In this document: positions 31,101 through 59,338 of the stretch, piece after piece
Layout: each line of letters begins with the position of its first letter
Position numbering within the stretch: the first letter of the stretch is position 1
Assembly (NCBI GenBank): GCA_017415185.1
Contig: JAFQHZ010000017.1
Span: 1-64,000, forward strand
Origin: Candidatus Gastranaerophilales bacterium
GTDB lineage: Bacteria > Cyanobacteriota > Vampirovibrionia > Gastranaerophilales > Gastranaerophilaceae
Length of the DNA stretch: 64,000 bases
Reading direction: 5' to 3'
Made by a program: the position numbers and the translations under genes
Notes under the pieces: generated by a model
Databases searched by the model: none
Told to the model about the DNA's origin: nothing
The model's input: the letters and a program-made list of their open reading frames with translations, nothing else

Positions 31101-31163
31101 CCAAGGTGTGTGAAAACAAGGGCGGGCGCGAGATAGCGCGCGACCTTTGTTTGAAACCGTACC
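31101..31163. repeat. GC-rich structured dispersed element, copy 1
   Basis: A 63-base GC-rich island in AT-rich surroundings. It opens with CCAAGGTGTGTGAA and closes with ACCGTACC; both ends recur at 58634-58695 with a different interior. The interior is self-complementary (AACAAGGG against CCTTTGTT; GCGCG against GCGCGC), and the outer ends GGTGTG and CGTACC can pair with two G-U wobbles. Confidence 0.65.
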
Positions 31164-31187
31164 CCATGTAAAGTTACTAATAAATAA

Positions 31188-57225: not shown

Positions 57226-58449
57226 ATGACAAATTCTACTGTTGAAGTTGTAAAAAAATGTTGCTGTGGTCAATTTAAAGAATTGGCTTCTAAAGCTGTA
57301 AGTGATATTAAAAATCGTGCTGGTCGTGACGGCATGTTTTTAAATTGGATTGAAAAATTACCAAATATCCAATTGGCAAACCTTGATAAAATGGAACAAA
57401 TGGTTGCTAGTGCAAAAGCTAATAAATATACTGATTTAGCAATTTTGGGTATTGGCGGTTCTCGTCATACAACAGAAAACATCACAAAACTTTTAGGAAT
57501 TGATGAGCATGTTCACTTTTTCTCTTCAGTTGTTCCAACAAGCTTTGATAGATGGATTTCAAGATTAGACCTAGACAAAACTTTATTCTTGGTTGTTTCA
57601 AAATCAGGTGGTACATTGGAAACAACTGTTGGCTATGAAAAAGCTCGTGCAGCTGTTCAAGCACACACTGGTAAATCTGATACATCAGATCAATTTGTTG
57701 CAATGACTGATGCTAACAGCGAAAAATCAGCGCTTAGAAGAATTGTTGATAGTGGTGAAATTAAATTATCTGGTTTTGTTCATGATGATGTTGGCGGAAG
57801 ATTTTCAATTTTTGATGATGCTACAATTTTCACATTGTTATTCTTAGGCGTTGAAAAATCAGAGGTTAAAGCTTTAATGGAAGCTTCACTAGATGCTCAA
57901 GCTGAATTTTTAAATGAAGATATTGAAAAAAATGAAGCTTTACAATTAGCTAAATTCAACGTTAAAGCAAAAAATATGGGCAAAGATAAACATTTTGTTG
58001 AATACTTTGGTGATGAATTCTTTGGAACAACATTATGGGAAAAACAACTTAAAAATGAATCTTTAAAAGCTTCAGTTTTAACAGACACAAACGTTGGACC
58101 AGGATATCTTCACTATAACGCTGAAGCTGATTTAGACGTTAATAACATGGATTCATTCTTCACTTTTGTATATGTTAAATCAGACGACAAAGTAATGAAT
58201 GCGGTTATGGAAGGCGTAATTAGCGCATATAGTGCTCAACATCCTGTTTCAAAAATTGTTCTTGAAGATTTATCAATGAAATCTATTGCAAGATTTATCG
58301 AATTAAAACACTTTGAAACATTATACACAGGTTGGATTTTAAGAGCACAAAAAGGCAATATCACACCTGCTGAAATTGCTCTTGATGAAGTGCTTCAACC
58401 TAATGTTGAAAAATACAAAAAAGAAGTTAAAAAAGCGCTAGCCAAGTAA
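57226..58449 (+). CDS. pgi: Glucose-6-phosphate isomerase
   Basis: Interconverts glucose-6-phosphate and fructose-6-phosphate. 407 residues, shorter than the usual 450 or so. SIS-domain landmarks: I-L-G-I-G-G-S-R near 69-76, V-S-K-S-G-G-T-L-E-T near 125-134, G-G-R-F-S-I near 190 and a C-terminal helix with the lysine-rich K-K-A-L-A-K. TGGAGAA gives the ribosome binding site. The last codons and the stop (GCGCTAGCCAAGTAA) are the first copy of a repeat that recurs twice downstream. It links the alpha-glucan enzymes in the window to glycolysis. Confidence 0.92.
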   Translation: MTNSTVEVVKKCCCGQFKELASKAVSDIKNRAGRDGMFLNWIEKLPNIQLANLDKMEQMVASAKANKYTDLAILGIGGSRHTTENITKLLGIDEHVHFFSSVVPTSFDRWISRLDLDKTLFLVVSKSGGTLETTVGYEKARAAVQAHTGKSDTSDQFVAMTDANSEKSALRRIVDSGEIKLSGFVHDDVGGRFSIFDDATIFTLLFLGVEKSEVKALMEASLDAQAEFLNEDIEKNEALQLAKFNVKAKNMGKDKHFVEYFGDEFFGTTLWEKQLKNESLKASVLTDTNVGPGYLHYNAEADLDVNNMDSFFTFVYVKSDDKVMNAVMEGVISAYSAQHPVSKIVLEDLSMKSIARFIELKHFETLYTGWILRAQKGNITPAEIALDEVLQPNVEKYKKEVKKALAK

Positions 58450-58760
58450 GCCTAGTGCGACTGCACTTGGCGAACGCAGGCGAGCGCAAAAGGATGTGCC
58501 GAAAAAGCTGGAAGTGGTGAACTTTCAGCTTTTGAGTAACTGGACTACGGCGACGTGGGCGCTTGCGCCCTCGGGAGCATAACGCTAGCCAAGTAAGCCT
58601 AGTGCGACTGCACTTGGCGAACGCAGGTGAGCGCCAAGGTGTGTGAAGTGCGCTGACGGCTGCGTTGAGCAGGCGGCAAGCACGGATACCGTACCAAGGC
58701 GACGTGGAAATTTTAAATTTCCTCGGGAGCATAACGCTAGCCAAGTAATCCTAGTGCGAC
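58436..58760. repeat. Tandem structured repeat array at the 3' end of pgi
   Basis: The string CGCTAGCCAAGTAA followed by (G/T)CCTAGTGCGAC starts at 58436, 58583 and 58735, giving two units of 147 and 152 bases. The first 52 bases of the two full units differ at one position; the third copy keeps only 26 bases. Each unit has an AGTGC/GCACT hairpin near its start, a variable middle with its own hairpin, then GGCGACGTG, a variable perfect hairpin (58557-58570 or 58706-58722) and CTCGGGAGCATAA. The tract is GC-rich in an AT-rich genome and has no gene between 58450 and 58786. Confidence 0.85.
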
Positions 58761-58773
58761 AATTTTATCAACA

Positions 58774-58799
58774 AAATGGGTGCTAATTAGCACCCATTT
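58774..58799. terminator. Bidirectional intrinsic terminator overlapping the coaE stop
   Basis: Perfect 26-base palindrome: AAATGGGTGCTAA and its complement TTAGCACCCATTT. It closes the pgi repeat tract and contains the coaE stop codon. Confidence 0.85.
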
Positions 58800-59338
58800 A
58801 ATTTATCAATAACTTCTTTTGTTTTTTCTTTCAACTTGTCAAAATCTTCGTTGTTTTCAATAATAAAATCGGCAAAATTTCCTTCGTCTTGCAAATTTAA
58901 GCGCAAACGAGCTGTCTTAATATCAAGATTATTTCTTTTCATTAGCCTTTCAAGTCTAATTTCTTCTTTTGAATCAACAAAAATTGTTTTATCAAATAAC
59001 TTATAAAAGCCTGATTTAAAAAGCAAAGCTCCAGAGATAAATAATATTTTTTCATTTTTATATTTTTCAAATAAATCAAAAATGATTTTTTTTAATTCAG
59101 GAAAAAGTATTGATTCTAGGGTTGCTTTTTTGTCTTTATTGTCAAAGATTATTTTTCCAATTTCTTTTCTATCGGTTGTTTTAAATTCCTGAAGGATTTT
59201 ATCGCTTATTGTTTTTTTATCATATAGCTTGTGAACCATAAAATCCATATCAAAGACTTCATAGCCTAATGATTTAATTATTTTTTCTACTTCGCTTTTG
59301 CCTGAGGCAATTTTGCCCGATATTCCTACTTTTATCAT
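58787..59338 (-). CDS. coaE: Dephospho-CoA kinase
   Basis: Last step of coenzyme A synthesis. 183 residues. P-loop G-K-I-A-S-G-K-S at residues 8-15, D-M-D near 31 (Asp that positions the substrate), R-L-E-R-L-M-K-R-N near 148 in the lid, and a final helix, all as in CoaE. The ATG has no ribosome binding site but sits six bases from TAAAAT in a good promoter (59345-59374). The stop codon lies inside the terminator shared with pgi. Confidence 0.93.
   Translation of the reverse strand: MIKVGISGKIASGKSEVEKIIKSLGYEVFDMDFMVHKLYDKKTISDKILQEFKTTDRKEIGKIIFDNKDKKATLESILFPELKKIIFDLFEKYKNEKILFISGALLFKSGFYKLFDKTIFVDSKEEIRLERLMKRNNLDIKTARLRLNLQDEGNFADFIIENNEDFDKLKEKTKEVIDKLNGC

Follow-up and report, generated by a model that had tools for sequence, protein, structure and literature searches.

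The pgi–coaE junction and its repeat tract

The window, by which we mean the whole 64,000-nucleotide stretch that was analyzed, carries the gene for glucose-6-phosphate isomerase (pgi) as an ORF on the forward strand (57226–58449). Its convergent neighbor on the reverse strand (58787–59338) is an ORF that we take to be a dephospho-CoA kinase-like gene (coaE) from the P-loop start of its translation. A perfect inverted repeat at 58774–58799 lies between the two convergent genes, and from this position it is probably the terminator of both. A tract of structured repeats fills the space between the pgi stop codon and this common inverted repeat. The original prediction described three copies of a 26-base core and two unlike stems between them, and these are present as described: the cores start at 58436, 58583, and 58735, with spacings of 147 and 152 bases and one change in the third copy. 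The cores are real, but the repeat extends beyond their 26 bases. Copies one and two have 63 nt in common at 92%, since the core makes up just the left half of a hairpin of 53 nt, here called F. The complete unit is composed of three structured parts, F (~53 nt), H1 (~58 nt), and H2 (~32 nt), which follow each other in the window as F-H1-H2-F-H1-H2-F′, where F′ is truncated.

All parts of the tract are read on the forward strand. The first F hairpin (58435–58487) has a predicted folding energy of –29.2 kcal/mol (z –3.9) and spans the last codons and stop of pgi, GCG CTA GCC AAG TAA, which form its left arm. Its shape is irregular, with 5 bp, a 1×1 mismatch, 3 bp, an internal loop, 2 bp, a tandem G-A, 3 bp, a T-T mismatch, 5 bp, and a loop, and the same architecture is found at dozens of loci. 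It is followed by an H1 module of type B (AAGGATGTG ... ACTGGACTA, 58490–58547) and by the first H2 module (58549–58578), whose stem GGGCGC/GCGCCC is closed by GCGAC/GGAGC with a tandem G-A. The second F hairpin (58583–58633) is 96% identical to the first. The H1 module of the second unit (58636–58695) is of type A (AAGGTGTGTG ... ACCGTACC) and has 57% identity to that of the first, and the second H2 (58698–58730) has the stem GGAAATTT/AAATTTCC. The inner sequences of the two H2 modules are GGGCGCTTGCGCCC at 58557–58570 and GGAAATTTTAAATTTCC at 58706–58722, and the flanks GGCGACGTG and CTCGGGAGCATAA are constant. A covariance model of H1-H2, R1, matches 58488–58578 with an E-value of 1.5e-16 and 58635–58730 with an E-value of 2.1e-22, both sequences being part of its training set. 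The third F copy (58735–58760) consists of the left arm and the apical part only. Since the H1-H2 parts of the pgi array differ in type while the F copies are alike, simple tandem duplication is rejected. Elsewhere in the window the model gives one weak match, a possible extra H1 copy on the forward strand at 31102–31166 (E 0.00097, 22.8 bits).

Dispersal and compensatory change

The tract is not confined to pgi. In BLAST it matches 27 places in the 1.87-Mb genome, and many of these are gene ends at which the parts follow each other in the same order. The covariance model, built from 12 H1-H2 copies of this genome, finds about 50 copies in it (49–51; 49 at E ≤ 0.1) and 2–70 in each of 23 congeners. 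Many copies stand in arrays with a period of ~150 nt. In a 292-genome sample of the phylum, 44 genomes have a match at E ≤ 1e-4 and all but one of these belong to the same family; this search used stricter filters, so that its copy numbers are lower bounds. Copies are sparser in the other genera of the family than in congeners. Rfam 15 gives no relevant match for the window at gathering scores, for the other loci at E up to 1, or for the window tract at E up to 10. Longer patterns gave no match in viral contigs, nor did longer queries in phage, plasmid, and IMG/VR collections, and a scan of collections of genome contigs and viral contigs with a 14–15-base motif returned only chance-looking matches in unrelated organisms. 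The host is probably a gut Gastranaerophilales-type bacterium, and the literature searched under guessed host names holds no account of such repeats. An assembly artefact or chance repeat has a negligible probability. Many contigs of these draft genomes do end inside copies of the element; however, the pgi array is internal to its contig, related pgi arrays are found in two other assemblies, and the artefact is rejected because independent assemblies carry the element.

The surroundings of individual copies are varied. The RNase P RNA gene of this genome (L008 1032–1488, contig C40 of G000) gives a 457-nt match to a model of 367 positions, with element-like copies inside or adjoining it. F-H1 copies lie directly upstream of pilin-like genes with an FTLAEV start at L002, L003, L005, L007, and L009, mostly at contig ends, and some of them hold an extra 45-bp insert within H1. 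In other genera, single related copies are found at gene junctions of apparent mobile DNA. In four genomes (L497–L500) an H1-H2 copy lies between convergent genes that, from their translations, we take to be a HigA/HigB-like pair, and by the same kind of reading L503 is presumably a phage tail gene junction and L072 a serine recombinase junction. A ribosome-binding role for the GGAG of H2 was considered because the L503 copy, in the phage tail operon, puts AGGAG just before an ATG; it was rejected, as most copies read have no start codon there. Another of these copies in other genera lies beside tmRNA, at L501 (905–1600, G286); downstream of this F-H1-H2 copy the 3′ end of tmRNA and about 25 bases after it occur a second time, which resembles an integration site.

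The two unlike but self-complementary H2 stems had suggested selection for structure, and comparison of many copies bears this out. When the first 12 H1-H2 copies are aligned, 17 of the 21 predicted pairs have compensatory double changes. In an alignment of 127 distinct copies, 93.6% of cells form the pairs of the model structure, and double changes occupy 632 cells compared to 160 after shuffling. The covariation score of 0.614 compares with 0.153 for shuffled alignments and at most 0.082 for slid partners. This alignment was fitted to the structure and most of its rows are paralogues, and independent checks on F and on orthologous sites therefore matter. F lies outside the covariance model; 55 of 63 distinct F stretches fold at z < –2 (mean –4.0). 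Almost all of them take up a single irregular shape in which the tandem G-A and the T-T mismatch are conserved while the arms are unlike. At the orthologous groEL site the outer arm of F is 100% paired in eight sequences and four of its eight pairs are doubly changed, and in the F hairpin that follows tRNA-Tyr three of 14 pairs are doubly changed in three species. These comparisons strongly support the view that selection, or another process, keeps the structure rather than the sequence, both within the genome and at orthologous sites. The repeat is neither found only here, nor devoid of structural conservation in relatives, nor produced by assembly.

Gene ends, empty sites, and a possible rewriting of F

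At stop codons the units stand in the sense orientation, and the first unit of an array usually begins no more than 25 nt from the stop. Among 57 well-folded F hairpins, 23 begin within 25 nt of a stop codon on the same strand and one at a stop on the opposite strand, compared to ~11% of random intergenic positions in the window that lie as near to a stop; later units of an array are farther from the stop by construction. Since orthologous groEL sites account for some ten of the 23, about a dozen independent gene ends are left. At pgi the host codons themselves appear fitted to the hairpin. The third codon positions of the gene have a GC content of 18%, and its sole GCC codon and its sole AAG codon (one of 39 Lys codons) both sit in the F arm. 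In G017 and G006 pgi ends in ATG AAC AAG TAA instead, and the right arm of F has the matching change.

Elements come and go among relatives. Across the congeners including this genome, 26 pgi ends are readable; three of these (in this genome, G000, and in G017 and G006) carry the element and 23 are ordinary. The ends of dnaK and several other genes are likewise empty sites in relatives. The protein at L013 ends in RIPVKKG* or RIPSKK* without the element and in RIPVKAQSEN* or RIPNKAQSEN* with it, which implies that the element supplied the C-terminus and the stop codon there. At the groEL end most congeners have elements, and further units open with a repeat of that end. The leader upstream of tRNA-Leu is single and unduplicated in eight congeners; others (L445–L466) have tandem copies of the leader and tRNA 5′ end around several unlike hairpin inserts, with up to three near-identical units in G002. 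In a similar arrangement at L380 (1920–2200, G007), an F-H1 copy and one more hairpin insert lie among repeats of the 5′ end and leader of a tRNA-Thr.

The duplicated gene ends had suggested the attachment sites of a small element that restores its target gene, and part of this claim holds: the ends of pgi and groEL and the 5′ ends of tRNA genes are indeed duplicated around inserts, and units are gained and lost. The stricter form, in which a site-specific element would make a long target-site duplication and so restore the gene, is very improbable. In its favor are the tRNA-Leu leader with the tRNA 5′ end and the groEL end. A real duplication would be flush with the insert; however, the copy that trails the insert is a piece from the 5′ side of F whose length varies, and strict target-site duplication is therefore rejected. 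At L013, moreover, the F sequence is missing from the empty sites and replaces the host C-terminus, and searches of 28 congeners found no dedicated transposase or reverse transcriptase.

In arrays, F copies can be alike while the H1-H2 parts between them are unlike. The F copies of the pgi arrays are 96–98% alike within a genome and 70–72% alike between G000 and G017. For H1 the relation is the reverse: between the two arrays the identity is 93% for type A and 91% for type B, compared to 57–62% between A and B. The simplest reading of these identities is that the H1 modules were already present when every copy of the pgi F would have been rewritten. This homogenization is not universal, as the F copies of several other arrays have a similarity that does not exceed the mean of 64% between loci.

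The same evidence bears on a role for the host, in which the units would be regulatory or mRNA-protecting 3′ UTR structures, recognized by a protein or the ribosome, that stabilize mRNAs or tune termination and are kept by selection for the host. We regard this explanation as doubtful, though it deserves to be weighed. It would account for the compensatory changes at the orthologous groEL and tRNA-Tyr hairpins (4/8 and 3/14 pairs), the synonymous-site adaptation of the last pgi codons to the hairpin arm, the sense orientation, and the presence of copies at genes that are expected to be highly expressed (groEL, dnaK, tuf, nusG, and pgi). It sits poorly with the many sites that are empty in close relatives, with a copy number that varies from 2 to 70, and with copies in or beside RNase P RNA and before tRNA genes.

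Mode of action and relation to known repeats

Folded sense-strand RNA should tolerate G-U pairs and not A-C. Over all pairs of the model, G-U and A-C are found 48 and 39 times, respectively. In pairs with at least 90% Watson–Crick cells, a cut that was set after seeing the pair table and with totals added up by hand, the numbers are 34 and 11. G-U makes up about 2% of cells, which is unusual for a plain structural RNA. The evidence thus leans towards the sense strand as the folded one, i.e., towards action as RNA rather than DNA, and is not decisive.

The attC sites of integrons are hairpins conserved in structure and variable in sequence, which lie next to stop codons and where alike sites surround unlike contents. 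F shares these features. A recombinase might read F as a folded single DNA strand, as it would attC or IS200-type ends, and move H1-H2 cassettes between F sites. This DNA-level explanation is unlikely. The conservation of F in shape with fixed mismatches, some arrays in which like F copies surround unlike contents, and the narrow excess of G-U over A-C across all pairs speak for it. Against it, no Y1 transposase was found in 27 of 28 congeners; integrons carry gene cassettes and none is seen between the F copies, where homologous structured modules stand instead; the final F is incomplete; and the well-formed pairs favor G-U.

The Y1 transposase (PF01797), found in only one of 28 congeners and not in G000 (a control was detected in 5 of 14), is nearly absent and is not supported as the partner of the elements. 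Reverse transcriptase (RVT_1) was found in 12 of the 28 congeners and not in the high-copy genomes G003, G006, G007, G018, G020, and G021; these are draft genomes in which a single absence carries little weight, and it is not supported as the partner either. The window's own genome has a reverse transcriptase gene at L442 (G000 C43:22010–22675). A protein search for IscB (RRXRR) gave 0 of 28, with controls equally silent, and the HEARO model (HEARO / IscB omega RNA) had no match with cmscan against Rfam 15 at E up to 1, or up to 10 for the window tract. At the junctions and empty sites inspected, neither terminal inverted repeats nor short or precise target duplications were seen. No coding copy of the element is present among the loci read, and the search covered few enzyme families.

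Among described repeats the BOX elements of Streptococcus pneumoniae are the closest analogue, likened by their features and with no claim of common origin. These are modular interspersed non-coding repeats with internal modules of variable number, which fold as RNA, are seen as parasitic, and supply the stop codon of a gene in 36 cases (PMC3049150). Dispersal, modularity, and tandem modules of variable number are all found in the F-H1-H2 family. It differs from BOX in its architecture, in which F is repeated, in having the stop codon as its main position, and in F arms that are locus-specific, may include host codons, and co-evolve. Rickettsia palindromic elements are short palindromic mobile units that also occur inside RNase P RNA and tmRNA genes (PMC2229807); the copies inside or next to RNase P RNA, and the one next to tmRNA (L501), resemble them. 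Unlike these and MITE-like repeats, the units here are tandem and stand at gene ends rather than inside ORFs, and the terminal inverted repeats and target duplications usual for MITEs are not seen. REP sequences, the GTAG- and CGTC-tagged palindromes, are interspersed imperfect palindromes with variable stems, of which the CGTC REPs lack a dedicated transposase (PMC3733652). They are single palindromes of 20–40 bp with an unpaired tag, whereas the unit here has three different structured modules of ~150 nt in all. On the features tested the family belongs neither to MITEs nor to RAYT-associated REPs.

We therefore favor, with reasonable though far from complete confidence, a new family of modular, non-coding, mobile structured repeats of the BOX kind that spreads through the genomes of one bacterial family. 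Insertion would favor gene ends, with an overlap between the left arm of F and the final codons and stop, or other termini such as tRNA ends; by this overlap the gene would stay readable and the unit would join its sense-strand 3′ UTR, where the sense strand may work as folded RNA. The units would be essentially selfish and tolerated because of their place between stop codon and terminator. Arrays may grow, and F copies become homogenized, by recombination or conversion between F hairpins, with H1-H2 modules coming in from elsewhere, and mobilization would depend on a putative trans-acting factor. Several observations weigh against a spreading repeat family: no mobilizing enzyme, precise target duplication, or terminal inverted repeats were found in the searches above, the elements at the groEL end in most congeners could mean a host function, G-U pairs are scarce, and not all arrays have homogenized F copies.

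A bolder and more tentative proposal, which may hold but on which we would not insist, is that the element is a mobile structured RNA with stop codons as its target. It would insert at the ends of coding sequences and recruit the last host codons for one side of its first hairpin; the arm that codes and the arm that belongs to the element would then co-evolve, and the F copies of an array would be rewritten in concert by a putative hairpin-directed process.

As a repeat family that extends across the genus, F-H1-H2 appears to be undescribed; its covariation is very strong and it is anchored at stop codons. What is new compared to known repeats is this anchoring, the three-part architecture, the recruitment of host codons into one arm of a hairpin, and F arms that change in concert. 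The spread and persistence of short non-coding repeats, and RNA versus DNA action, can be put to a natural test in this family. It also bears on how repeats alter the C-termini of proteins and the 3′ ends of mRNAs, and its presence and absence over 28 related genomes makes these questions testable.
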